NCBI GenBank assembly: GCA_021608145.1
Contig: JAKIHM010000003.1
Location: 1-64,000 of the forward strand
Source of the DNA: Thermovorax subterraneus
GTDB taxonomy: Bacteria > Bacillota > Thermosediminibacteria > Thermosediminibacterales > Thermosediminibacteraceae
Reading direction: 5' to 3'
DNA: 64,000 bases
Part shown: piece by piece, positions 10,250 through 44,783 of the stretch
How positions within the stretch are numbered: the first letter of the stretch is position 1
How the letters are laid out: each line of letters opens with the position of its first letter
Notes under the pieces: generated by a model
What the model was told of the DNA's origin: nothing
Database searches by the model: none
What the model saw: the letters and a program-made list of their open reading frames with translations, nothing else
Made by a program: the position numbers and the translations under genes

Positions 10250-10306
<57 letters not shown>

Positions 10307-24070: not shown

Positions 24071-26047
24071 TCAAACACTAACACATCCCTGCCTACAGCC
24101 ATCTGATGTTTCAGATGTGTGAAAGATCCCATCAAGAAATTCTTTTATTTCTACAACATTAAATATACTGGAAATTTTACACCCCTTGTTCAATATAGAA
24201 TTTATCTCAAAGATTTTTTCTATTGATAATTTATGGGTTTCGCTAACTAATTGAAAGTCTTTATTAAAAAAGCTTTCAATATCCCCAGAAAGAATGCATA
24301 TGCCGTTCGTTCTTAATGTCCTTAAAATGGCTTCTAATCTGTCAAACTTTTCTTCACCTCTAAAATCTTCTATGCTTTTTGCTGTATAAAACTTCTCTTC
24401 ATAATTTTGCTTTATAATATTTCTAACTTTTGACACTAGCCCAAATATCTTCTTTCCCTCTTCTCCAAAACGACTAATAAAGAACCTTTCTCCTAAATTT
24501 TCGATACTCTCATGACACTTAGCACCTTTGTCTTTGTACTTTCTAACTTTCTCTTCATCTTTATCCCTTAAAAAATAATCAAAATCAGCTACGATATAAG
24601 TGTCAATTCTTAATTTCAAAGTTAAGTCAACAAATTTACTTATATTATCCTTGCCTCCAACACTTATAACCGATATGTTTTCTTCATTAAGTTTGTTGCC
24701 ATACAGTTCCTCTGCGACCCATTTGATTATGTAGTTATCATATCCCTCACAAACAATTACTTTATCTGCAAAAAACACCTCATTTTGATTGTTATCAACC
24801 AATACATCTTTAAACTTTTTCACATTTAATTGATGTATAGCAGTTTTTCCTTCATTCTTTCTTGCAAGGATTATATTCATATTTGGTTCTATTGTTTTTA
24901 AAAATTCTGGACTATGTGTGGTAATTATAACCTGGTTTTTGCCGTCATTTAAAAACTCGTCCAACTTGTAATTAATAGTTCTGCAAGCATTAGGATGTAA
25001 ATAAAGTTCTGGTTCTTCTAAACATAGTAAAGCAGATGATTTTGTATTAACATAATTTATATAATAGCTAAATAAACCTATAATCGTAGCACTTTGAATG
25101 CCTGAACCTTTATCCGTAATTAATGATTTGTATCCATCGTCGATATATATGACCACATTTTTGTAAATATCTGGTTTTTCATCGGCACTAAATTGAAACA
25201 ATATCTCAGTTCCAGGAAAAGCCGCATTAAAAGAACCGTTACTAATTTTTTGTTTTACATCACTAAATACTTCGTCAGCGATTTCTTTAACTCGTAAAAA
25301 AGCTTTCTTCAACTCATCATCTTTATTGTGGTTTTTAGTTAGATGCCGCAATAGTTTCCCATACCAGCTCCACTGGTTAATTCTTAACTGCACCATTGGA
25401 TCTCTAAAAGAGGGTATTATCGCACTTTGGAGGAATTCATTGCGAATTGGTGCTGAAAATGCCATCGTCCAATTTGAATTTTCATCTTCTCTATAAAAAA
25501 ATCGCAAATCTTTCTTTACATCTCCATCTTCATTTCTATATGCTTTCAAAACAAATGCAAATATATATTTATTTTCAAATTCCTCTATAACCTGGTCAAT
25601 ATTTTTCTTTGGACTTATATACTGTTTTTCCTCATATCTTAACTCATCAGGATCTATTAAAAATTCATTTTCAAAACAATTTTTTATAGCATCCTTATAT
25701 ATCGATCGTGAATACTTATAAAACCCCGAGCACTTAAGCATCATATCATAAGGAATATCTTCTCCTTCATCTCGCCTCAATTCACAATAAATAAAAATAT
25801 CATTAGTAACTACAATTTCCTCTTTCGTTTCATCCTTAATTTTGTATGTGAAAAAATCTTTCTCTGTTATATTCTCATTTTTCACATATGCTGGATTACT
25901 TTCCCCTAAAACCAAATCTACTGCTTTAATAATATTGCTCTTACCACAATTGTTTTTCCTAACAATAATGTTTTTACCCTTAGCAAAAGTTATATCGATA
26001 TATTCAATGCTTCTAAAATTCTTAATAATTACCCTATGTAAATACAT
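24071..26047 (-). CDS. OLD-family ATP-dependent endonuclease (AAA ATPase plus TOPRIM)
   Basis: A 658-residue SMC-like ATPase with a C-terminal TOPRIM nuclease. Walker A is VRKNNCGKSNIIKA (the usual first glycine is Arg), the signature region is TDKGSGIQSATIIGLFSYY and Walker B is LLCLEEPELYLHP with H in TTHSPEFL. The TOPRIM starts at KVIVCEGYDN and has YIVADFDYF. OLD proteins act in phage defence by cutting DNA. There is no UvrD-like partner next to it, so it is not a Gabija pair. The ATG at 26047 follows GGTGGAG. It lies directly downstream of hsdR. Confidence 0.85.
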   Translation of the reverse strand: MYLHRVIIKNFRSIEYIDITFAKGKNIIVRKNNCGKSNIIKAVDLVLGESNPAYVKNENITEKDFFTYKIKDETKEEIVVTNDIFIYCELRRDEGEDIPYDMMLKCSGFYKYSRSIYKDAIKNCFENEFLIDPDELRYEEKQYISPKKNIDQVIEEFENKYIFAFVLKAYRNEDGDVKKDLRFFYREDENSNWTMAFSAPIRNEFLQSAIIPSFRDPMVQLRINQWSWYGKLLRHLTKNHNKDDELKKAFLRVKEIADEVFSDVKQKISNGSFNAAFPGTEILFQFSADEKPDIYKNVVIYIDDGYKSLITDKGSGIQSATIIGLFSYYINYVNTKSSALLCLEEPELYLHPNACRTINYKLDEFLNDGKNQVIITTHSPEFLKTIEPNMNIILARKNEGKTAIHQLNVKKFKDVLVDNNQNEVFFADKVIVCEGYDNYIIKWVAEELYGNKLNEENISVISVGGKDNISKFVDLTLKLRIDTYIVADFDYFLRDKDEEKVRKYKDKGAKCHESIENLGERFFISRFGEEGKKIFGLVSKVRNIIKQNYEEKFYTAKSIEDFRGEEKFDRLEAILRTLRTNGICILSGDIESFFNKDFQLVSETHKLSIEKIFEINSILNKGCKISSIFNVVEIKEFLDGIFHTSETSDGCRQGCVSV

Positions 26048-26102
26048 TCTTCCCACTCCACCTTAAGACAGTCATATTTCACTAAAAACAAATACTTATC
26101 CA

Positions 26103-29100
26103 TTAAGCAGCATCTTCAAAGAGAGATACAGCCTGTTCAATGACCAGTTTAACTACATTATCCAGCTTTTGTGGATCTTTGAAGCCCTTTCTTCTTAGTA
26201 ATCTTTTTACAGTTGCCCTGATGGATGCCTTAATGTTTTCTTTTATAGTCCAATCTACCTGCCCCTCGGTTTTACTTTTTATAATTCGCACAAGCTCTCT
26301 TGCAATTTCCTTTGCTTCTTCGTCATTTAAAATAGCCTCTTCACCCTGACATACAATGTCGTAAAAAGCCATTTCTTCTTCCGTTAAGTTCATTTCTTTT
26401 GCCCGTTTGTCCATATTCTGCATTTCTTTTGCCAAATCAATAAGGTGTTTTATAACCTCAGCAGATGTAATAGCACGATTATGATACTTATTCAAAACTT
26501 TTTCTATCATTTCTTTAAAAGAAGCATACTTTACATGATTCTTCCTGATCTTAGCCTTAATCTCATCATTAAGCAGTTTGCGCAAAACCTCAATCTGCAA
26601 GTTTTTATTCTCTTGCCCCATAAGTTTATTTAAAAATTCCTCACTCAGAATAGACAAGTCTGGCTTTTTAAGCCCCGCCGCATCGAATATATCAATTGGT
26701 TTGTCGCTTGCAGCAACACCCTCGGAAATAATATGCTTTATGGCACTGTCCAGCTCTTCGATTGATAACCCTTTAGGCGGCGTGTATTTGACAATATTGC
26801 TTCTTACTGCCTGGAAAAAGGCAACATCTGAACGAATACGCATCGCTTCTTCTCTTGGTACTACAAGGGCAAAAGCCTTGCACAATGCCATGCACTGATC
26901 CAAAAAATTTTTCTTTGTGGTCTCATCCTTATTTATTAAGTCCATAGCCTGCTTTAAAAGACTTAATTTGTCCTCTGCACTTTTCTCTTCCCAACCCGAA
27001 AAATCAATGCCGTGGAAATATGAACAAACAATATCGTACTTCTCCTGCATAATCCTTATGGCTTCATCAATGGGTAAGGTAGCAGCCTCTTTGCCCGTGC
27101 TTCTTGTGTAATTTGCCAGTGCCAGTTTTAAGTCATCAGCAATACCGATGTAATCTACAACCAATCCTGCAGGTTTGTCCTTAAAGACCCTGTTTACTCT
27201 GGCTATAGCCTGCATTAAGTTGTGGCCTCTCATGGGCTTGTCGATATACATCGTATGCAAGCACGGCACATCAAAGCCAGTAAGCCACATATCCCTTACA
27301 ATTACCAGTTTAAGAGGATCGTTGGGGTCTTTCATCCTTTTTTCAATCTCTTTTATTTGGGACTTCGTATACAGGTGGGGCAAAAATTCTTTCGGGTCTT
27401 TCGAAGGATTTCCTGACATTACAATTTTAATTACGCCTTTGTCTAAGTCATCGCTGTGCCAGTGCGGTCTTAACTTAATTATTTCGTTGTAAAGGTCAAC
27501 GCAAATCCTTCGGCTCATACATACTATCATGCCTTTGCCCTCAAGAACCTTACACCTTTCTTCAAAGTGCTCTACAATATCCCTTGCTATGGTTTCAAGC
27601 CTTTCTTTGGTCCCCACTAATGCCTCCAAAGCTGCCCATTTTGTCTTAAGTTTGTTCTTTACCTCTTCTTCCTCGCCTTCTGTCACTTCTTCAAAGTCCC
27701 TGTCAATGTTTTCGTTTATCAAATGAAGCTTTACCAACCTTCCCTCATAATAAATGGGCACAATGGCTTTGTCTTCCACTGCTTGTTTCATATCATAGAT
27801 GCTGATATAGTCTCCAAACACCTGAAGGGTGGACTTGTCTTCAAGATCGATAGGCGTCCCCGTAAAGCCAATAAAGCTGGCGTTAGGAAGCGCCTGCCTT
27901 ATATACTTCGCAAACCCATCGATAAATTCATAGTGCGACCTGTGCGCCTCGTCGACAATGACAATAATGTTGCTGCGGTCCGAAAGAAGGGGATAGGTTT
28001 TGCCCTTCTTTAAAGCTTTTTTAAGTTTTGGATCAACAACCCCTGAAACCTCTTCTGCTTCCGCCTGAAATTTCTGTATTGTTGTAAAGAATATGCCGCC
28101 TGCTGCAACCTGTGAGAGCTTTTCTTTTAAATCTTCAACGCTCTCTGCCTGTTTTGGATATGGAATTAGGTCGCTTGCATTGCAAAAGGTTTCATACAGC
28201 TGGCCGTCAAGGTCGTTGCGGTCGGTAATGACTACAATTGTAGGATTCTGAAGTTCTTTAAGCTCTATTATCTTTCCCGTATAAAACACCATGGAAAGGC
28301 TTTTGCCGCTGCCTTGAGTGTGCCAGAATGTACCTATTCTTCTGTCACCGCCAGGAGATGTGGCCCTGATTGTTTCTTCTACTGCTTTATTTACACCGTA
28401 ATACTGGTGATACATAGCCATAATTTTAATCACTTCATCCTTAGCAGTGGAAAAGGTGATAAAGTTTCTTATTATGTCGAGAACTCTTCTTTTATCAAAC
28501 ATGCCCTTTATCAAAACTTCAAGTTCTGGCATTCCTTCTACGCTGCTAACACCGTCAATGGATTTCCATGCAGAAAACCTCTCCCAGGGTGCGGTAATCG
28601 TTCCTGCTTTTGCTTTATTTCCATCAGATACAACGCAGATCTCATTGTAAGCAAAAATGTCGGGAATATCCCTTTTGTACAGCTCAAGCTGCCTATATGC
28701 CCCTTCTATTGTAGCCGCCTCATCTAATGGATTTTTCAGTTCGAATAACCCTACTGGCAGGCCGTTAATATAAACAACAATATCAGGGATTCTTACACCT
28801 GCACCTTTGATTTTTACCTGGTTGCACACAAGAAAATCGTTATTTTCTGGGTTTTCATAGTCAAATATCTTTACTATTTCTCCAACCTCTTCGCCTTCGC
28901 TGTTGCGTCTTGTAACTTTCGCACCATTGCGGTATACTTTATGTATCTCTCTGTTGTTCAACTCTATCCTCGGATACTGGAGGTTCTTCAGCTGGCGTAC
29001 CGCTTCCTCAACGCACTCCAGCGGAAGTTCGGGATTCAATCTTATTAAGGCCTTATAAAGCCTATTTTTTAAAATGACCTCTCTGTAGTCTTTTCTGTCT

Positions 29101-29204
29101 TCAACGGGTATTTCGTTGCCGTGCAGGTATTCGTAACCTATATCTTTAAACCATTTGATGGCCGCCTGCTCTACCACACTCTCAAAATTTTGATTGAGAT
29201 TCAT
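26103..29204 (-). CDS. hsdR: type I restriction enzyme R subunit HsdR
   Basis: Translocating endonuclease subunit, 1033 residues. The N-terminal nuclease domain contains the PD-(D/E)XK residues in [20 protein letters not shown]. The SF2 helicase motor has [15 protein letters not shown] (motif I), [12 protein letters not shown] (II), IGFTGTPI (III), and [16 protein letters not shown] to QAIARVNR (IV-VI). The C-terminal helical part contacts HsdM. Complete and in the usual place downstream of M and S. Without a functional HsdS (disrupted here) it would be inactive unless another S gene exists. Confidence 0.95.
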
Positions 29205-29239: not shown

Positions 29240-30973
29240 TCAAGATACCAAAATCTGCCTAAGCCTATTCTTCATCATTTCTCTGCGCTTGCAGAAAAAT
29301 TCTTTAAAATTAACAATAGAAAGATCCAACCCTGTCAAATAATGAAGTTCTTTATATTGATTTTTGGCAGTGTCATCTTTGTAGTTTTCATCAAGCCATT
29401 CCACAAAGGGCTTCGCACTTTTAGACATATTTATGTTGCCTTCTAAAAGTTGCAAATTTGGGATCTTATTATAATTTTCAAGGCAAAAATCAATATCTTC
29501 TGGTTTTACTCCTAATTTAAGGAGTTTTTCTCTGCTTGTAAAAAAGCTTTTAGGATGTATATGATCCTGGTGAAAGAGGTTGTTATAGTCCAGTGTGGGA
29601 TATAAAAGAGCCAAAACTGAAAAAGTATACTTTTTGCCATACTCGTATTCCAGCAAATTTTCTATTTCCTCGTCTCCAAAGTCAAGTGATTTTGGAGTCC
29701 CTCTCAGCCTTTGCTTCATAATTTCAACAGGGAAACCATTTAAGTTTTGTCTTATAATGTCCCTTATAATGCTCAAAATATAGTCTGAATTGCCGCCAAA
29801 AGTCTGCTTTAGTAGAACAATGTGCAACCATTTTTTTATTTTCTCTCGCTCGTCTCTAAAATTCACAGAGGTTACAAAATTGTTTCTTAAGTCCTTTTTA
29901 TACAAGTAGTAAGATATCGGTATAATGGCGTTATTCGAAGTCAATGTCTGATAATCAAATCCGAATGTATTTATCAATTCCACAGTTGTCCTTATGCTTT
30001 CTTTTATCTTGTCCCAATTGTCCTGAATAACAGACATATTCTGTTTGTTAAAATTGTCAACTTTAAATTTGATATCATTAAAATCACAGAGGACGAGGCA
30101 TGTCTTTAAAACAAAATCCTTATTAAAGCTAAATCCTCTGCCTACACTATTAATTTCATCTACAAAATTTATAATTTCTTCGCGAGCGTCTTTTTCATCC
30201 CACTGGGCAGTAGCAATGGAAAGAAGCAAATCGGAATAGCTCAATTGCGTGCCGCCGCTGTTTACTCGAATAAAAACATTCAACACCTTATCAAGTTCTT
30301 GATCTTCTTCAAGATAGTAATTTATTATTGGCCGTTTAAAAATCACATCTGATAATCTGAAAAGGGTTCTGGATGCAAATTTATTTGTGGCAAGCTGATT
30401 TTCGATCAAATAATCATTGATCTGTGAAGGGTCCTGAGGATCAAAATTAAGAATATCTCCAACTTTGAACCAGAATGTATTTTCATCCCTTTTCTTAGCA
30501 TCTTCTTCTGTGAGAAATCTAAAATCGTAACTCAAATCTTCATCATCAGCTTCTTTAAGCAAATTCAAATAGAGATACTTCTTAGGGAAAGCGGCAGGGT
30601 CATTCCATCGCCTGTAAGGAACTTTTGAGGCGTAACTCCCCTTTAAAGCGATATAAAGGGAAGTTAGCCTCTGCTGTCCATCAAGCACTGATATTATCTC
30701 TTCATCTCCCAGCAAAACTGCTTTCTGATTGTGGGTCTTGCCTTGATGATAGTGGCAGATAAATTCGTAGAACTGATATTTTTTTACGCTTTCTTTTGAA
30801 ACTTTCCAAAATAGAAAAGAACCAATTGGGTAGCCCCTCATAATTGAGTCAAAAAGGCGCTCTATTTGTTCTTCGCTCCAAACAAATTCCCTCTGTATTG
30901 CAGGCAGCAGATATTTTCTGCTGCTTATATTTTTTATGGCATCATATATAGTAATCGGTGTTTGAAATGACAT
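29240..30973 (-). CDS. DUF262/DUF1524 (GmrSD-like) protein inside the type I locus
   Basis: A 577-residue protein. The N-terminal DUF262 has LLPAIQREFVWSEEQIERLF, YPIGSFLFW and SVLDGQQRLTSLYIALKG, a ParB-like/NTP-binding fold. The C-terminal domain has HQDHIHPKSFF followed by NLQLLEGNINMSK, the HNH-like nuclease core of DUF1524. Fused DUF262-DUF1524 proteins include the type IV modification-dependent enzyme GmrSD. It lies between hsdS and hsdR, the slot often occupied by an extra defence gene in type I loci. It appears intact. Confidence 0.85.
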   Translation of the reverse strand: MSFQTPITIYDAIKNISSRKYLLPAIQREFVWSEEQIERLFDSIMRGYPIGSFLFWKVSKESVKKYQFYEFICHYHQGKTHNQKAVLLGDEEIISVLDGQQRLTSLYIALKGSYASKVPYRRWNDPAAFPKKYLYLNLLKEADDEDLSYDFRFLTEEDAKKRDENTFWFKVGDILNFDPQDPSQINDYLIENQLATNKFASRTLFRLSDVIFKRPIINYYLEEDQELDKVLNVFIRVNSGGTQLSYSDLLLSIATAQWDEKDAREEIINFVDEINSVGRGFSFNKDFVLKTCLVLCDFNDIKFKVDNFNKQNMSVIQDNWDKIKESIRTTVELINTFGFDYQTLTSNNAIIPISYYLYKKDLRNNFVTSVNFRDEREKIKKWLHIVLLKQTFGGNSDYILSIIRDIIRQNLNGFPVEIMKQRLRGTPKSLDFGDEEIENLLEYEYGKKYTFSVLALLYPTLDYNNLFHQDHIHPKSFFTSREKLLKLGVKPEDIDFCLENYNKIPNLQLLEGNINMSKSAKPFVEWLDENYKDDTAKNQYKELHYLTGLDLSIVNFKEFFCKRREMMKNRLRQILVS

Positions 30974-31008: not shown

Positions 31009-31844
31009 TCACATTACCCTTATTTCGCCTGATATAAGTTTGGGAAGCAAGGTATCGCGAAGTTGGGATAAATAATAATTTTCAAATGTATACTTTTTGT
31101 CAAAAATTGGCTCTACCAAATTAATAAATTTTTCCTGTATCTCTATTGGAGCTACTGCAAGCTTCTCATTTTCGAAAAAATATTTCAATTGAAAGTTACT
31201 TATACCTGTTGATTGTATTTCATACTGTGTCATTTTACCTTTGTTATAAATAAACTGTAAATATAAAAACAAAATTATTGAATTTAACATATTATTCACC
31301 CTTATTAGCCTACAAAAGTTAGAAAAAACCAATGATTCATCAAATTGTTTTATTAAATTTCGATGTACAAATACAGTTCTTCCTGTAGGTCGCCCTTTTG
31401 TTCCACCAGAAACTTCAATAAGAATATCTCCATGTTTTAGTCTTCTCTTTTCAAAACTACTTCGCTTCAAAAATCTTACAGGAATATTTGTTTTATCTCC
31501 CCTTAGTATTGGCGGAAAATCAGCTCCTCTTATACAAAAACACTTTTTATCATAATCTTGTGATCTTTCATCATTTCCCCAATCTCCACTTATAGTAAAA
31601 TCTACCAATTCGCCTATACTTTTCACTTTCCACCCCTTCGGTATCGGTCCCAATTCACTGTCTACAAATTCTCCCCCGCTGGATTTATAAGGTTCTCCAT
31701 TTTCGTTTGGAAATTCAAAATCAATAAACCAGTGCTTGAATATAGCCTGTGCTATTTCTTCAAGGGTTTTGTTCATCTCGTTGTTTAGTTCGATTTTGTC
31801 GTCAAAAGCGGAAAGGATAGAGGCAATTTTTTGTTGTTCGGATA
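31009..31844 (-). pseudogene. hsdS: hsdS 3' part, separated by IS110 insertion
   Basis: Specificity subunit, C-terminal two thirds. It opens with SEQQKIASILSAFDDKIELN, the central conserved helix of HsdS, then ELGPIPKGWKVKSIGEL and a second target-recognition domain, ending LLPKLISGEIRV. In the interrupted reading it has no proper start; an apparent frame running into the IS is accidental. Joined with the 5' part it would make a normal two-domain HsdS of about 440 residues. Confidence 0.88.
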
Positions 31845-31909
31845 AAGACGTGCTATGAAAAGTCAATAGGTTATAGCAAAAATTTTTGACAATCACATAG
31901 AAATTCTGT

Positions 31910-33133
31910 TCATGCATTGTTGCCGGGTGGAGACCATTGATAATCCGCGTCATACGGCCGATTATCCTTCCAGAGAGAATAAATCAAGTGAACAAGTTTT
32001 CTTGCAACAGCTCCTGTAGCAACATTCGAGTGCTTTCCCTGGCTGCGTTTTAACTCATAATAAGCCCTCAGCTCCGGGTTAAATCGGCGGGCTGAAATAG
32101 CGGCTAACCACAAGCTGTTCCTTAAAACAGGGGAACCGCGTTTGGACATACGGTTACGAGTACCCTCAAACAATCCAGAGGCCCTTACGGTAGCATCTAA
32201 ACCAGCATAGGCAACAAGAGCCCGGGGATTAGGAAACCGAGAAATATCACCTATCTCGCCGATAATTGCGGCGGCCAGGATGGAGCCAATGCCTGGAATA
32301 GTTTCAATTACGTGGCGATAAGGTGTCTCCTTACTGGGACGAAGCTCCTCCATAACCTCGTTAATAGCGTCCTCGATAACCTTTATCTGTTCTTCAATAA
32401 ATTCAATTTGCTCAATCAGCAAACGCAGCTGGAGGGTAAAAGCGTCTAGAGCCATGGTAATGCCGAAGGTGCCTTTAGCCAGAGATTGAATCTTTTTAGC
32501 TCTTTCTTCACCGAACCTGCCGCGGGAATGTTCTTTAAGGAAAGCAGATAACTCTGAAAGGTCCACTTCGGCTAATTCTTCCGGCTCCGGGTAAGATTTT
32601 AGCAGCTCCCTTGAAGTCCGGATAAACACATCGGAGAAGCAGTCTGGATATTCAGGGAAAATCCTATCCAAAATACCAAGCACCCTGTTCTTAAGGCCAC
32701 CGACCTGGCGAACGAACTCAAAGCGGAGTCGGGAGAGCGACTGTAATTTAAGGGTTGTTTCTGAAGGAAGCCTGGTTGCAGGGGCTCTTCCCAATCGTAA
32801 CAAATCGGCAAGGAGCAAAGCATCTTTTTGGTCGGTTTTAGCTTTACGCACATAGAGATTCCGCAGAGCATCTGACTGAATGGGATTGATGACATGAAGT
32901 TCGAATCCTTGGTTAGTGAGGTAGCAGTAGATAGGGAGCCAGTAATGGCCGGTAGCCTCTAAGCAGAACTTTACGTCATCAGGCTTTAAACCGAGTCTTT
33001 CCAATGCCTGCAAAAGCTTATTCATCCCTTTATGGTTATTATCTAGATGCATCCTAAGAACTATATCACCGGAGTCGTTTACGAGGCATACTTCGTGACT
33101 GTGTTTAGCCACATCAATACCGCCATAGAACAT
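31910..33133 (-). CDS. IS110-family transposase (DEDD recombinase)
   Basis: A 407-residue recombinase. The RuvC-like N-terminal domain has FYGGIDVAKHSHEV (first Asp), CLEATGHYW (Glu) and AKTDQKDALLLADLL (last Asp residues). The C-terminal Transposase_20 domain has ETIPGIGSILAAAIIGEIGD, FPNPRALVAYAGLD and SKRGSPVLRNSLW with the catalytic serine region. Full length and apparently functional. The upstream 287 bases are its presumed bridge RNA region. Confidence 0.93.
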   Translation of the reverse strand: MFYGGIDVAKHSHEVCLVNDSGDIVLRMHLDNNHKGMNKLLQALERLGLKPDDVKFCLEATGHYWLPIYCYLTNQGFELHVINPIQSDALRNLYVRKAKTDQKDALLLADLLRLGRAPATRLPSETTLKLQSLSRLRFEFVRQVGGLKNRVLGILDRIFPEYPDCFSDVFIRTSRELLKSYPEPEELAEVDLSELSAFLKEHSRGRFGEERAKKIQSLAKGTFGITMALDAFTLQLRLLIEQIEFIEEQIKVIEDAINEVMEELRPSKETPYRHVIETIPGIGSILAAAIIGEIGDISRFPNPRALVAYAGLDATVRASGLFEGTRNRMSKRGSPVLRNSLWLAAISARRFNPELRAYYELKRSQGKHSNVATGAVARKLVHLIYSLWKDNRPYDADYQWSPPGNNA

Positions 33134-33178
33134 GATTTACATCCTCGCTTTCACTGAATTAGGCAGGGTTCCCGCAAT

Positions 33179-33328
33179 CCTCTATAAGTCTCAACCTTGC
33201 GCGTAACTCGAGGCATGCAGCAAGCTGCATCCACAACGTGCTCATTCGAGACATCTCATAGAGGAGGGGTTTCACTCTTATCTTCGGGACAGCAAAAGAG
33301 CTTCCCAAGGGGGTAGATCGAAGTCCCC
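33179..33328 (-). ncRNA. candidate IS110 bridge RNA
   Basis: The non-coding segment before the transposase folds, in transcript order, into GGGGAC (33323-33328) with GTCCC (33286-33290) around a loop containing CCCCCTTG (33306-33313), then CCTCTAT/ATAGAGG plus GTCTC/GAGAC (33258-33264, 33179-33192) enclosing ATGCAGC-TT-GCTGCAT (33215-33230). Target loop before donor loop before the recombinase is the order described for IS621-type bridge RNAs. The first loop repeats the target flank and the second contains AGCACGT, also found at the element's right end. Confidence 0.6.
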
Positions 33329-33418
33329 TGCCGCTACGAGAAATATTTAGCTAAGTTTTATCAGAATTCCTGTGTGGTTGTTAAAAAAATTTTATTAGTT
33401 AAAGCTAACTATATTGTA

Positions 33419-33901
33419 CAAGGGGGGAAGTTTTACTTTAATTTTTTTTAAATCTTCAATAGTTACATGACCTAATCCTGTAGTTTGTTTGTTTTTTGCT
33501 ATGCATATTAAATAGGGTTTTAAGTACTTTAACAAATAGTAAAGATACTCTTTTGTAATAATTTCTTCTTTTGTATATAACTTAAATATATGCTGATTAA
33601 GCCACCCCTTCTCCATATTAAACCAAAAAACATCTATTGAGGTATCAGGACTCCCTGACCATGAAAAGAGCAAATCTTTCCTTTTAAGATAATACTTCTC
33701 TTCAAAAATCCCGTTTGTAAAATTGGTATTACTTGTTATCCCATTTTTTAACTCTGCTATCTTTATGATCGGTATTCCTCTATCACTAAAATCTTTCTTT
33801 TTAAAGGCAAACCCATTTTGCCATTCTGCTAAATCAAATAATATGTAATCTTTCCATTCTTTATAATAGAAAAATGGTGTATATAAGTCATTACTCCCCA
33901 T
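33419..33901 (-). pseudogene. hsdS: hsdS 5' part, truncated by IS110 insertion
   Basis: N-terminal target-recognition domain of the specificity subunit, starting MGSNDLYTPFFYYKEW and reaching DLKKIKVKLPPL, the sequence that precedes the central helix in HsdS proteins. It then runs into the IS110 element and stops at 33395. The start overlaps the end of hsdM (ATGGGGAGTAA), typical for hsdM-hsdS. Confidence 0.88.
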
Positions 33902-35435
33902 ATCCCAATTCCTCCAGATTTGCCTTTATAATTTCATCAAGCCTTCTTGCTTCTTTCATCTGCTGATATAGTTTTTCAGTTAGCTCAACCATTTTTTCTT
34001 CAAAAGGTATATCGTCTTCTTGTGTATCTTCTACACCTACATATCTTCCTGGTGCAAGGACATAATCGTTTTGTGCAACAACATCTACAGGAACCGAAGC
34101 ACAAAAGCCTTTTACATCTTCATACCCATTTTTATTTCTCCAGTTGTGATAAGTCTGGGCAATCTTTTGAATCTCCTCATCAGTAAGTTCTCTATGTGTC
34201 CTGTCTATCATAACCCCCATCTTTCTGGCATCAATAAAAAGAATTTCTTTCGTTTCCCTGCCTTTGCGGATGAACCACAAACATGCAGGTATCCCCGTTG
34301 TGTAAAACAGCTGTGGCGGCAGGGCAACCATACAATCCACCAGATTATCCTCTATGATCCTTTTCCTTATCTCATACTCCGCATTGTTGCTGGTAGTCAT
34401 AGAACCGTTAGCAAGTACAAAACCAGCAATACCTTTTGGCGCAAGATGATAAATAAAATGCTGTATCCATGCATAATTTGCGTTGGAATCTGGCGGCAGC
34501 CCGTATTTCCACCTCACATCATTCGCTAACCTATCTGCTCCCCAGGCACTGTCATTGAACGGCGGATTTGCTAATATATAATCTGCTCTCAAATCCTTAA
34601 ACTGGTCATCTGTGAAGGAATTCCCCAACCTTATATCCGCCTCAATGCCCCGAATTGCAAGGTTCATTTTACACAGCCTGTAAGTGGTCGGATTGGATTC
34701 CTGCCCATAGATTGAAATATCACCTTTCTTGCCTGCATGAGCCTCTACAAAGCGTATGCTCTGGACAAACATACCCCCAGAACCACAGCATGGATCAAAA
34801 ACCCTACCATGTAAAGGCTGAATCATTTCAACAAGAAGTTTAACAACACTTGGTGGCGTAAAAAACTCGCCACCTCTCTTGCCCTCTTTTCGGGCAAATT
34901 CGGAAAGAAAATACTCATAAACTCTCCCTAAAACATCCAGTTCCTCATTTTTACCAAAATTAATGCTGCCAATCAAATTGACAATTTCACCAAGAGTGTG
35001 CGGATCCAGGGGCGCTCTGGTGTATACTTTCGGCAGTACACCTCTTAACTGCTTTGGATTTTCTTTTTCAATCAAATCCATAGCATCATCAATAAGTTTT
35101 CCTATATCGCTTCGACGAGCATTTGCCATTATGTATTCGTACCGTGCCTCCTGTGGCACATAGAATACATTTGCTGCGATGTATTCATCTTTGTCTTCCA
35201 ATACAAGCTGCGCTTCCTCTTCAGTTTCGCAATAATATTCTTCGTTTTCAGGGTCTTTTACTAAGCGCTCTAACTCTTCCCTTCGATATTTGAATGCATC
35301 AGAAATGTATTTCAAAAATATAAGTCCAAGCACAATGTGTTTATACTCTGAGGGTTCCATGTTGTTTCGCAATCTATCGGCTGCTGCCCAAAGAGTTGAA
35401 GCAAAGTTTAACACTCCATCGTTATTCTGACCCAT
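33891..35435 (-). CDS. hsdM: type I restriction enzyme M subunit HsdM
   Basis: Adenine-N6 methyltransferase subunit, about 514 residues. The N-terminal HsdM_N helices (LWAAADRLRNNMEPSEYKHI) are followed by the N6_Mtase domain with FDPCCGSGGMFVQS (SAM binding), GQESNPTTYRLCKMN and the catalytic ILANPPFN. Complete. I favour the ATG at 35435 (GGGGAG upstream); an in-frame GTG at 35447 is also possible. With hsdS broken, it cannot form a specific methylase from this locus alone. Confidence 0.95.
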   Translation of the reverse strand: MGQNNDGVLNFASTLWAAADRLRNNMEPSEYKHIVLGLIFLKYISDAFKYRREELERLVKDPENEEYYCETEEEAQLVLEDKDEYIAANVFYVPQEARYEYIMANARRSDIGKLIDDAMDLIEKENPKQLRGVLPKVYTRAPLDPHTLGEIVNLIGSINFGKNEELDVLGRVYEYFLSEFARKEGKRGGEFFTPPSVVKLLVEMIQPLHGRVFDPCCGSGGMFVQSIRFVEAHAGKKGDISIYGQESNPTTYRLCKMNLAIRGIEADIRLGNSFTDDQFKDLRADYILANPPFNDSAWGADRLANDVRWKYGLPPDSNANYAWIQHFIYHLAPKGIAGFVLANGSMTTSNNAEYEIRKRIIEDNLVDCMVALPPQLFYTTGIPACLWFIRKGRETKEILFIDARKMGVMIDRTHRELTDEEIQKIAQTYHNWRNKNGYEDVKGFCASVPVDVVAQNDYVLAPGRYVGVEDTQEDDIPFEEKMVELTEKLYQQMKEARRLDEIIKANLEELGYGE

Positions 35436-35477
35436 TTCCTTTTTCACTCCCCTAAATATTATTCCGCCTTAATAAAA

Positions 35478-35801
35478 CTACGCTTTCTGTCTTTCCTTTT
35501 CTATACTCTGGAAATAAGTATAAACTATGTTTCTCAGCAATCGGCTAATAGTTACATTGTAGCATTGTGCAAGGCTTTTGATATACTCAAGCTCTACATC
35601 GGAAACTTTTATATTAACCATTTTTCCTACCCTCGATTGAAAAGTATAGTCTTCCAATAGCTGGTCGGGATGGAAATTATAAAGTATATACATAATCATC
35701 TTGGCACGGGTAGAAGCTATTTGGTTTTCAACTGCATATTCCTTTAGTTTCTTATGCATTGCTGGACTCACTAAAGCCCATATTTGATGAGGCTTTCTCA
35801 C
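35478..35801 (-). CDS. ribbon-helix-helix-like putative DNA-binding protein
   Basis: A 107-residue basic protein. The segment MVNIKVSDVELEYIKSLAQ and NVTISRLLRNIVYTYF has the strand-helix-helix pattern of RHH/CopG-type binders; a first, weaker unit may occupy the N-terminus (ALVSPAMHKKLKEYAVENQI). It is the first gene of the minus-strand hsdM cluster and may regulate it. The 10-bp phased TTAA array about 330 bp upstream is a conceivable target. The fold is inferred from sequence pattern. Confidence 0.5.
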   Translation of the reverse strand: MRKPHQIWALVSPAMHKKLKEYAVENQIASTRAKMIMYILYNFHPDQLLEDYTFQSRVGKMVNIKVSDVELEYIKSLAQCYNVTISRLLRNIVYTYFQSIEKERQKA

Positions 35802-35876
35802 GAAACAAATCCCTCCTCCTCTTTAATCATAGCACAATGTATAATAAAATTCATCAAGTTTTTTTTAGATTTTTCT

Positions 35877-36088
35877 TTAAACTTCATGTGCAAAACCAAG
35901 ATTATACTGCAGTATTTGAAAATTACCTTTTAAAACTGACTTTGGCAAATTATTTTGTTTTATCACAAATATACTTTGTTTTTCTCGCAATACTAATGTT
36001 TTTAGCGTTGAATTCCTCTTATTCTCTAATGCTTGATTTGTTTTTAAAATCGTGCCCAATATCTTTCCCCATTGTTATTTTCAAGCAT
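35877..36088 (-). pseudogene. small broken gene with strong ribosome site
   Basis: AAGGAGGT lies just before an ATG at 36086-36088, but that frame stops after 14 codons (MLENNNGERYWARF). A shifted frame from 36059 stays open to 35877 (LGTILKTNQALENKRN to NLGFAHEV). Together this looks like a gene of about 70 codons with a frameshift. Family unknown. Confidence 0.35.
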
Positions 36089-36128
36089 AGTACCTGACCT
36101 CCTTGGCTTTGATGTATTGATACGAAAA

Positions 36129-36217
36129 TTAATTAATTGCTGTTAATCTCTATTAATTTCCATTAACAGACATTAATACGGATTAATAAAAATTAATAGA
36201 AATTAACAGACATTAAT
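36129..36217. repeat. 10-bp phased TTAA(T/C) array
   Basis: TTAAT or TTAAC starts at 36133, 36143, 36153, 36163, 36173, 36183, 36193, 36203 and 36213: nine units at exactly 10 bp. The 16-mer TTAACAGACATTAATA recurs at 36163 and 36203, a 40-bp higher-order repeat. No coding explanation. Probable protein-binding array or curved DNA. Confidence 0.9.
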
Positions 36218-36290
36218 AAAGCTGCCTCATCCAAAAAAATAGCCTTGGAGCTACATAAACTAATACCATCGGAATGCAGTCTTATAATTT

Positions 36291-36614
36291 TAAATTCGAT
36301 TTTGAAAACCAAAATAGTTTTAGAAAAAAGAGAATGCTTATAGTAAAGCGTTTTTAAAAATGTATTGCTTACTATATCAAGTTTTTATCTTATATTCAAC
36401 AGTGTTGAAATAGCAACTCCGAACATGAATGGAAAGCTTGAAACTGTTTTGTTTACAGAAAAACATTCTATATACTATTCAATATGTTCATGGTCTTCAG
36501 AGTGAAATTGGCTGAAACCCTTGTGATATAAATACAATTTCGATTTTAAAAACGAAAATCTTTGATTAAGGTTTCACATATTCAAAATCGTTCCGTTCAT
36601 TTTTAAAAACGAAA
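36291..36614. repeat. three copies of a CGTTTTTAAAA-type palindrome
   Basis: TTTCGATTTTAAAAACGAAA (36539-36558) is palindromic with one mismatch. Related copies are AATTCGATTTTGAAAACC (about 36293-36310) and CATTTTTAAAAACGAAAA (about 36598-36615). A half copy lies at 21286-21300. The stretch also holds TATAGTAA/TTACTATA arms (36339-36346, 36369-36376). No gene is visible between 36241 and 36617. Confidence 0.6.
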
Positions 36615-36617
36615 AAT

Positions 36618-36652
36618 AAAGCCTCTACTCTGAGAACCAGGGTAGAGGCTTT
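36618..36652. terminator. bidirectional terminator
   Basis: AAAGCCTCTAC (36618-36628) pairs with GTAGAGGCTTT (36642-36652), followed by Ts on the plus strand and preceded by an A-rich run. Confidence 0.75.
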
Positions 36653-36695: not shown

Positions 36696-37040
36696 TTGAC
36701 TTTAAAATCCCTTTTTAACATTTATCAAATTTCTGCTAATTTTCCTGTATTTGAGACTTATGTAACAAAATCCCAAATAATAAGAGCCGTCACCTCCATT
36801 GGTGCCAACATCTCGGAGGGCAACGGCCAGCTTTACAAGAAAAAACAAATTAACTTTTTCAACAATGCATTAGGAAGCGCATCGGAAACAAGACACTGGC
36901 TTGTAACAGCACTTGATAATAAGTATATTACCCAAGAAGATTACGATAAGCTTGAACAAAAAACAGTTGAAATAATTAGGATGTTGATCGGCTGCATCCG
37001 AAAACTGCAATATCAAGCAGAGGACGAGGAAATAGCATAA
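36696..37040 (+). CDS. four-helix bundle protein (S23-type), N-terminus uncertain
   Basis: A protein of about 114 residues matching the S23/four-helix bundle family: QIIRAVTSIGANISEGNGQ and INFFNNALGSASETRHWLVTA are the conserved helices 2 and 3, and TVEIIRMLIGCIRKL is helix 4. The N-terminal helix is poorly conserved, and the only start is a TTG at 36696 without a ribosome site, so the gene may have lost its 5' end. Family function unknown; such genes often mark variable regions. Confidence 0.65.
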   Translation: MTLKSLFNIYQISANFPVFETYVTKSQIIRAVTSIGANISEGNGQLYKKKQINFFNNALGSASETRHWLVTALDNKYITQEDYDKLEQKTVEIIRMLIGCIRKLQYQAEDEEIA

Positions 37041-42478: not shown

Positions 42479-42904
42479 GGAAAAACTTTTTTCCCTTTTC
42501 GGAATGACTTTATTTTTCACGGCAAAACTTCAGACAAAAACAATTTCCAAACTTGATCCTTATCTACTTTTTCCTTGCCCCTAACTATGTTAATTTAAAA
42601 AAAACCCTTTCCATTTCCAATCCCTCAAACCCGCATAAAATCTACATGGCATTTTCTGGAAGGTAATAAAGTTTTTCCGTAATTAAGCTATATTTCTACT
42701 AAAAATTCCCAATCATGCTCCTATTTTGTGCGAAAAAAGTTCTTCCGAATGGACAGCTTCAAGGGCAAAAGGAAAAAGGGATAAGTGGCGTAAAAACCTC
42801 ATTCCTCAAGGCTTCACCACTCATCCCCTTGCCATTTCTTTATCACTTGAACCTTAAACCCTTTCCCTTTTCCCTACCCAAACGGAACTACTTTTTTCAC
42901 ACAG
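42479..42904. repeat. repeated and inverted CGGAA..ACTTT elements, one MITE-like
   Basis: GGAAAAACTTTTTTCCC plus CGGAATGACTTTATT (42479-42513) closely repeats 37513-37547. CGGAA-NN-ACTTTwTT also appears inverted at 42666-42681 and as terminal inverted repeats of a ~179-bp unit: GTGCGAAAAAAGTTCTTCCG (42726-42745) and CGGAACTACTTTTTTCACAC (42885-42904). That unit also has an inner dyad GGGATAAGTGG / CCACTCATCCC. No gene lies in 42335-42953. Confidence 0.6.
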
Positions 42905-42953
42905 GAAAAAGATTTAAATGAAATATACAAGAATCTCTCTTTTCGAAACGAGC

Positions 42954-44783
42954 TTACTCCACCGTTACGCTCTTGGCGAGGTTTCTCGGCTTATCCACGT
43001 CACAGCCACGAGCAACGGCGGCGTAATATGCGAAAAGCTGCAGCGGAATAACGGCGAGCACTGGCGTCAACATCGGGTGGGTTTTGGGAATATACATTAC
43101 ATGGTCCGCAGATTTTGCAATATCTTCGTTTCCTTCATTTGCAAGGGCAATTACGGCCGCACCCCTTGCCTTGACTTCCTTAATATTGCTCAGGGTCTTT
43201 TCGTACAAATGCTCCTGGGTTACCAGGGATATAACCGGCACACCTTCCGTGACCAGGGCTAGAGTGCCGTGTTTCAGCTCGCCGGCAGCATAAGCTTCCG
43301 CATGGATGTAGGAGATTTCTTTCAGTTTCAGTGCCCCTTCTAGAGCTACTGCGTAGTCCAGACCCCGGCCAATGTAGAATATGTGTTCCCTGTCCGCATA
43401 CTTTTCGGCCATCTTTTTAATATCGTTTTCAGCATCTAGAATGACCTTCGCCTGGTCGGGCAGTTTTTTCATGGCCAGCGCGATTTCGGTGAACTCTTCA
43501 CCGGAAATAGTCCCCAGAAGTTTTGCAAAGTGAAGAGCTATTAAATTCAGGGCAACGAGCTGGGTACTGTACGCCTTGGTAGAAGCAACGGCAATTTCTG
43601 GTCCGGCCCAGGTGTATAGCACATCGTCGGCCTCCCGGGAAACGGAGCTGCCCACGACGTTGGTTATTGCAAGTACCCTGGCCCCTAGTTTTTTGGATTC
43701 GCGAAGTGCCGCTAAAGTGTCGGCTGTTTCTCCGGACTGGCTGATTATTATCACCAACGTGTCCCTGCCGATCATGGGTTCCCTGTACCGAAATTCCGAA
43801 GCCAGGTCGACTTCTACAGGTATGCGGGCAAGTTTTTCTATGACGTACTTACCCACTACGCCCGCATGATAAGCCGTTCCGCAGGCTACTATGAATATCT
43901 TCTTGAGGTTTTCTAATTCCTCTTTAGTTATCTTTATATCATCCAGCCGCACTTCTTCCCTTTCGGGATAGAGCCGCCCGGTCATGGTATCCCGCAGGGC
44001 TTTAGGCTGTTCGTGGATTTCCTTCAGCATGAAGTGGGGGTATCCGCCTTTTTCCGCTGCCACAGCATCCCACTTTACTTCGAATACTTCTTTGGATACA
44101 GGTTTACCTTCAAAGTCCGTAATCTCGACGCCGCCCTTGGTTATCTTCGCCATCTCTCCGTCTTCAAGGATGTACACGCGACGGGTATATTGAAGTATGG
44201 CTGGTATATCCGATGCTACAAAATTCTCGCCGTTTCCGAGGCCAACTATGAGCGGGCTTGACTTGCGAGCAGCCACCAACGTCTCCGGCTCCTTGCTGGA
44301 AATCACGCCCAGAGCAAAGGACCCTTCGAGCTTTTTTACAGCCATCTTTACCGCTTCGAATAAATCTCCTTTGTAAAAATGCTCAATCAGGTGCGGGACA
44401 ACTTCCGTATCGGTCTCGGACTCAAACCGATGCCCCATAGATTCCAGCCATTCCTTTAGCTCCTGGAAATTTTCGATAATACCGTTGTGCACCACAATAA
44501 AATCTCCCGAACAATCGCTGTGGGGATGTGCATTGACATCCGAAGGCCTTCCGTGAGTAGCCCACCGGGTATGACCTATCCCTATATGCCCCTCGGGATA
44601 AGCTCCCCCCAGCCTTTCTTCCAAAACTTTTATCTTGCCCTCGCTTTTTACCACCTTCATGCTGCACGAATTGTACACGGCAATACCCGCCGAATCGTAG
44701 CCCCTGTACTCCAGCCGCTTTAGCCCATCTATCAAAATGGGAGCAGCTTCCCTGTCTCCCACATAGCCGACAATTCCGCACAT
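42954..44783 (-). CDS. glmS: glutamine-fructose-6-phosphate aminotransferase GlmS
   Basis: Makes glucosamine-6-phosphate from fructose-6-phosphate and glutamine, the first step to UDP-GlcNAc. Complete at 609 residues. The N-terminal glutaminase has the catalytic Cys2 (MCGIVGYVGD) and HTRWATHG. Two SIS domains follow (ACGTAYHAGVVGKYVIE, SQSGETADT, GRGLDYAVALEGALKLKE). The C-terminus ends DKPRNLAKSVTVE as in all GlmS. The upstream leader carries a glmS ribozyme that cuts its own mRNA when the product accumulates. Confidence 0.97.
   Translation of the reverse strand: MCGIVGYVGDREAAPILIDGLKRLEYRGYDSAGIAVYNSCSMKVVKSEGKIKVLEERLGGAYPEGHIGIGHTRWATHGRPSDVNAHPHSDCSGDFIVVHNGIIENFQELKEWLESMGHRFESETDTEVVPHLIEHFYKGDLFEAVKMAVKKLEGSFALGVISSKEPETLVAARKSSPLIVGLGNGENFVASDIPAILQYTRRVYILEDGEMAKITKGGVEITDFEGKPVSKEVFEVKWDAVAAEKGGYPHFMLKEIHEQPKALRDTMTGRLYPEREEVRLDDIKITKEELENLKKIFIVACGTAYHAGVVGKYVIEKLARIPVEVDLASEFRYREPMIGRDTLVIIISQSGETADTLAALRESKKLGARVLAITNVVGSSVSREADDVLYTWAGPEIAVASTKAYSTQLVALNLIALHFAKLLGTISGEEFTEIALAMKKLPDQAKVILDAENDIKKMAEKYADREHIFYIGRGLDYAVALEGALKLKEISYIHAEAYAAGELKHGTLALVTEGVPVISLVTQEHLYEKTLSNIKEVKARGAAVIALANEGNEDIAKSADHVMYIPKTHPMLTPVLAVIPLQLFAYYAAVARGCDVDKPRNLAKSVTVE

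Follow-up and report, generated by a model that had tools for sequence, protein, structure and literature searches.

What reads nine short palindromes that follow one another at exactly 10 bp, and what might be controlled from them? Such an array is present in a 64,000-nt stretch of the Thermovorax subterraneus genome (contig JAKIHM010000003.1, positions 1 to 64,000; hereafter the window), a few hundred base pairs before a gene for a small ribbon-helix-helix (RHH) protein, called RHH1 here. As the earlier note on this DNA had read from its letters, this gene heads a restriction cluster: an hsdM/hsdS/GmrSD/hsdR/OLD operon lies behind RHH1. It seems fairly likely that the array is a multi-site operator, bound cooperatively by RHH1 and controlling the defence operon.

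The phased array and the RHH1 gene

The nine units, each TTAAT or TTAAC, start every 10 bases from 36133 to 36213 with zero slips, and the 16-mer TTAACAGACATTAATA at 36163 occurs again at 36203 (+40). The RHH1 start codon (35801) lies 328 bp from the array edge. Phased count, recurring 16-mer and distance (given as about 330 bp) were thus all correctly described in the earlier note. Each repeat consists of the 6-bp palindrome RTTAAY, with ATTAAT as consensus, and a loose 4-bp spacer, and since the unit is palindromic, the same array is read on either strand. An extra tenth TTAA stands out of phase at 36129.

Other TTAA runs in the window, at periods of 5-24, never exceeded three units. When the surrounding 1 kb was resampled 2,000 times under a Markov model and scored for periods 8-13, the longest chance run had four units and appeared once, and the four-unit pattern matched nowhere else in the whole 2.45-Mb genome. 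A logo of 43 units gave 1.5-2.0 bits at the six core positions and 0.35-0.8 bits at the four spacer positions. Across loci the unit number and the spacer sequence vary while core and phase are constant, as expected if selection keeps proteins arrayed along one face of the DNA, and not if the repeats arose by slippage.

RHH1 is placed among the ribbon-helix-helix proteins by a recognisable strand-helix-helix motif in its sequence. Residues 61-97 matched DUF6290, NikA-like and RelB-type profiles, all below the curated cut-offs, and the PutA RHH profile weakly. In a low-confidence structure model (pLDDT 56), a strand was predicted at residues 61-66 and helices at residues 13-25, 30-42, 68-80 and 85-106; Foldseek matches of this model were uninformative. 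The N-terminal and C-terminal halves could be aligned by hhalign (E 7.7e-5, probability 62%), with the N-terminal strand absent from the model, whose pLDDT is ~30-50 there. RHH1 is probably, by sequence, a tandem RHH protein with an internal duplication. Its likely promoter aligned with TTGATA-N17-TACTAT located 5' of RHH1 in three other genomes (G068, G065 and G010); it was read by consensus, and a consensus scan missed it. With tblastn, RHH1 gave zero matches in 72,556 plasmids and 50,697 phages, and no relative was confirmed in IMG/VR, so a plasmid or phage origin was set aside.

Array and RHH1 in related genomes

Nine genomes of the same family and a 398-genome sample of the phylum were searched with the array pattern and the RHH1 protein independently. 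Among the nine, a five-unit pattern found one further array, in G004 of the same genus, and the protein search returned the same two genomes only. When the pattern was found first, an RHH homologue was then found nearby in G004 (34% identical) and G079 (71%, adjoining the array); when the protein was found first, an array was then found upstream in Thermoanaerobacter wiegelii (83%), G068, G065 and G290 (92%). The number of units was seven in T. wiegelii, seven with one TTGA in G068 and likewise in G290, a degenerate four in G065 and a perfect six in G004. Phased ATTAAT scores at period 10 reached 28-36 of 36 in the seven loci with an array, where shuffled sequence gave 24-26 at most, and were at background in the loci of an RHH2-type paralogue (L058, L076 and L103).

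An array was present upstream of RHH1 in six of the nine loci with an intact RHH1. Its distance from the start of the gene was 327-397 bp in four loci, and in G079 it was 579 bp. RHH1 occurred in seven of the 398 genomes and five copies of RTTRAY at period 10, with one mismatch allowed, in five; the four arrays with TTAA cores were all in RHH1-positive genomes (hypergeometric probability 3e-8, or 2e-6 without the window). This was the check proposed in the earlier note, namely co-occurrence of arrays and RHH1 homologues in related genomes, and it makes an RHH protein on phased palindromes the best reading. The suggested link stands in that the pair co-occurs and moves between unrelated defence operons; it does not hold at three loci where an intact RHH1 has no array.

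The operon behind the pair, as assigned with Pfam and PADLOC, differs between genomes. Type I restriction-modification (R-M) genes follow RHH1 in the window, G065 and G290. A DUF499/DUF3780/DUF1156 operon, a set described as a type-2 BREX-related system (PMC12839542), follows in T. wiegelii, G079 and G004, the G079 copy being recognised by 72% nucleotide identity with T. wiegelii and by its ORF sizes. BREX-1 (BrxA, BrxB, BrxC and an Eco57I-type methylase) follows in G068.

Two further elements accompany the array. One is a dispersed 14-bp palindrome, CGWTTTTAAAAWCG, called the P site here, with five copies at 36039-36611 in the window. Its layout around the array is partly conserved, and it is enriched at most related loci, often as pairs 50-57 bp apart. 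The other is a divergent small open reading frame (sORF) of ~68 aa (window 36398-36528; L038 5489-5692), whose frame is broken in the window and intact in T. wiegelii and G068. Both are part of the module. A four-helix-bundle gene also adjoins it in several loci. Judged from these arrangements, array, RHH1, P palindromes, sORF and four-helix gene probably make up a regulatory head that is portable and stands before differing defence operons.

Some look-alikes were rejected. Pattern matches in G371, G407, G261 and G168 had no palindromic core or no RHH1 homologue that could be found. In G195, a 10-bp phased array of TTGATATCA-like units (TTGAT) is flanked by two genes for XRE-type repressors in a phage-like region (L096 8600-8760) without RHH, and it is a separate case. 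Remote or fragmentary RHH matches were obtained in G045, G131, G224, G151 and G187, with a phased array at none of the three inspected. Upstream of RHH2 in G068 (L058 8213-8278, reverse-complement coordinates), imperfect ~13-bp repeats around GCTTAAG were observed.

Candidate readings of the array

From the observed array, its co-conservation and its position, we infer binding by RHH1, cooperativity and a direction of control. Each RTTAAY palindrome would be one RHH1 site, and with sites one helical turn apart, RHH units could stand side by side on one DNA face and bind in a cooperative, switch-like way. Dimers of the RHH repressors MetJ, Arc and omega bind adjacent short palindromic or repeated boxes cooperatively; their boxes differ in length and sequence from the array here and are not known to be linked with defence operons. 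The RHH1/hsdM promoter lies ~270-330 bp downstream of the array, with the divergent sORF on the other side; once filled, the array would set transcription of the defence operon, and its position between divergent genes would suit control over operon and sORF. The direction would most likely be autoregulatory repression or silencing, by analogy with RptR, the restriction-operon repressor compared below. With ~300 bp to the promoter, the array might silence by spreading or by looping, or it might control a start site further upstream.

Several points weigh against this operator reading. RHH1 binding and operon control are predictions, and whereas the RptR repeats overlap the -10 box, the array here stays clear of the core promoter of RHH1. 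As a candidate target, the P palindromes are conserved just as well. The loci are few, and the window, G290 and T. wiegelii are close RHH1 relatives at one chromosomal site (glmS). In G004, RHH1 and its promoter were deleted, leaving a 3' tail scar, while a perfect six-unit array was kept upstream of the operon; the only RHH nearby is a divergent RHH2 paralogue, 34% identical and ~0.9 kb away. In addition, intact RHH1 without an array was found in G394 (alone on a 6.5-kb contig, with another gene 240 bp upstream), G010 (contig end ~400 bp upstream, BREX genes behind) and G437 (integrase ~440 bp upstream, an N6_N4_Mtase-type methylase behind, type III-like), so the protein can persist alone. 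An RHH gene kept without the array is what the earlier note had named as counting against the link; it exists at these three loci, and in all three the 5' flank is foreign or cut within ~240-440 bp. G418 speaks for the operator reading: next to glmS it has RHH1 as a pseudogene with two stops, and it lacks the array, the sORF and the restriction operon.

It is possible, though doubtful, that the array is a genuine operator for another binder, such as a host xenogeneic silencer, a host nucleoid protein or the sORF product, with RHH1 acting at the P sites or its own promoter. P sites are ~21-fold denser around the loci (35 per 27 kb) than in the flanks (7 per 114 kb), and the array of G004 has outlasted its RHH1. 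The sORF family, which had no Pfam match, is predicted to form four strands and a helix (beta4-alpha, pLDDT 78), and the best PDB matches of its model were Pur-alpha and a PC4 homologue, at a non-significant E of 0.04-0.2. However, P sites are also present at the array-less RHH2 loci L076 and L103, so it is the array, not P, that accompanies RHH1. In the window an intact array stands beside an sORF that is a pseudogene, and the site of a general silencer would not be expected to be limited to RHH1 genomes. A transferable two-code immunity switch may be imagined more tentatively still: tandem RHH proteins would polymerise on the array, a second factor (possibly a Pur-alpha/PC4-like sORF product sensing single-stranded DNA) would read the P palindromes, and the two would jointly time R-M, BREX and BREX-related defence.

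That the array works as a transcribed hairpin or a cruciform, as an RNA attenuator or processing signal, is unlikely. The window array does form a 38-nt inverted repeat, 84% complementary (DNA fold z -5.8), and when spacers were permuted with the cores fixed, folds became weaker in the window and G068 (p ~0.02), with a marginal p of 0.03-0.04 for five loci combined. But palindromic units make any such array foldable, the T. wiegelii and G004 folds are no better than those with permuted spacers, and a hairpin has no need of an exact 10-bp period. A known RNA element was also rejected, there being no Rfam match near the array.

An exchange site, at which recombination swaps the regulatory head between defence operons, would account for an identical head before unrelated operons in different genomes. 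It is very unlikely, as the operons switch downstream of RHH1 rather than at the array, the alignment of T. wiegelii with G004 runs through array and leader, and array-less RHH1 also precedes varied operons. The centromere-like site proposed in the earlier note, or a mobile element's replication iteron, is an improbable reading as well: ParR proteins are RHH proteins on ~10-11-bp direct repeats (PMC9426499), and several loci have integrases or a serine recombinase next to them, but no ParM-, ParA- or TubZ-like motor and no replication initiator was found by Pfam among the genes inspected beside the arrays, where restriction and defence genes stand instead, three loci lie beside chromosomal glmS, and the recombinase type varies by locus. 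A repeat without a dedicated binder, made by simple slippage or curved in itself, can practically be dismissed, for although the array is a short A+T-rich 10-bp repeat listed by Tandem Repeats Finder, its spacers vary from unit to unit with the core kept, the opposite of recent slippage, it is kept across families beside the same gene, and curvature, which the earlier note had suggested, is minimal in the window array (1.5th percentile of its window) and average to moderate in the others (36th-89th), as predicted by a dinucleotide wedge model.

Neighbouring genes and known regulators

The features of the window are collected in the table.

Table. Features at and around the phased array (window coordinates)
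Feature	Position	Strand	Basis
Nine RTTAAY palindromes in phase at an exact 10-bp period; candidate multi-site operator	36132-36217	.	pattern; kept in six RHH1-bearing loci and G004
RHH1, 107 aa, GTG start; C-terminal RHH motif at residues 61-97, probable N-terminal RHH repeat at residues 2-43	35478-35801	-	profiles, hhalign, model
Likely promoter of RHH1 and restriction operon, TTGATG-N17-TGCTAT	35829-35857	-	alignment
Leader, array to promoter; holds one P site plus a block that aligns in every array locus compared	35860-36128	.	multiple alignment
P site TGTTTTTAAAATCG, RHH1 side of array	36039-36052	.	
P site CGATTTTGAAAACC	36297-36310	.	
P site CGTTTTTAAAAATG	36349-36362	.	
P site CGATTTTAAAAACG	36541-36554	.	
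P site CATTTTTAAAAACG	36598-36611	.	
Remnant of the divergent ~68-aa sORF, frame broken	36398-36528	+	tblastn
Intrinsic terminator behind sORF; also in T. wiegelii	36618-36652	+	
Gene for a four-helix bundle (23S rRNA IVP-type); lacks its 5' end here, complete in related loci	36696-37040	+	Pfam PF05635
hsdM, first restriction gene behind RHH1	33891-35447	-	
hsdS part one, broken by IS110-type element	33395-33901	-	
IS110-family transposase between hsdS parts	31910-33133	-	
hsdS part two	31009-31953	-	
GmrSD_N protein (PADLOC HEC-05)	29240-30973	-	Pfam/PADLOC
hsdR	26103-29204	-	Pfam/PADLOC
OLD-family ATPase/TOPRIM nuclease	24071-26056	-	Pfam/PADLOC

With hsdS split by the IS110-type element (31009-33901), type I R-M specificity may be lost or altered in this genome; at the hsdS position of G290 there is an unbroken 409-aa ORF. 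The module lies near glmS in the window, T. wiegelii and G290, and also in G418 with its decayed RHH1, which suggests a glmS-linked insertion site. Directly downstream of glmS, a repeat-rich conserved segment was observed (window 42480-42954; L038 4290-4760). A tRNA gene as shared integration site was rejected, as tRNAs adjoin the G004 island only, with none in the scanned window, G079 and T. wiegelii loci. Elsewhere in the window, a run of 52 T (10252-10303) is unusually long for a bacterial genome.

A close parallel among known regulators is RptR, a 79-aa all-helical dimer of Gammaproteobacteria. Its repeats are 9 bp long with the 6-bp palindrome TAGCTA in each, number none to five per promoter and overlap the -10 box, at least two sites being needed for full repression (PMC12255303). 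In both systems the gene that opens a type I R-M operon (here in the window, G065 and G290) encodes a small protein, the short direct repeats are built on a 6-bp palindrome, and protein and sites are conserved together. The module here differs in its unrelated, RHH-type protein of ~107 aa with a probable duplication, its 10-bp period, its 4-9 units ~300 bp upstream of the promoter, with 327-579 bp between the edge of the array and the start codon of RHH1, and its place also at the head of BREX-type operons. A profile search of PDB sequences with RHH1 did not have RptR among its matches, and RptR was compared by description.

BrxR/CapW regulators are also encoded before many defence systems and control them, but they are multi-domain WYL proteins (winged helix-turn-helix, wHTH, plus WYL) on inverted repeats, without RHH and without a phased array (PMC9122601, PMC9122588); no wHTH or WYL domain was found in RHH1 by profile searches. 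CapK/CapS binds TTAA-containing sites, cooperatively at one, yet it is a wHTH-STAS protein with a kinase partner on two palindromic sites with TTAA half-sites and no array (PMC13373217), and no gene of this type was among the genes inspected here. The ParR/parC pairs of some plasmids serve segregation with a ParM motor (PMC9426499), whereas no ParM-type ATPase was found by Pfam beside RHH1, whose neighbours are restriction and defence genes. In the open-access literature searched, no R-M or BREX operon under an RHH regulator was found.

How bacteria restrain costly and possibly self-harming defence is an open question, for which few regulator families (BrxR/CapW, RptR and CapK/S) have been described. 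If the operator reading is true, an RHH-based defence regulator would be added in Clostridia and related Bacillota. The operator unit, its period and its number predict cooperative control, and the array would give a searchable signature for defence operons.
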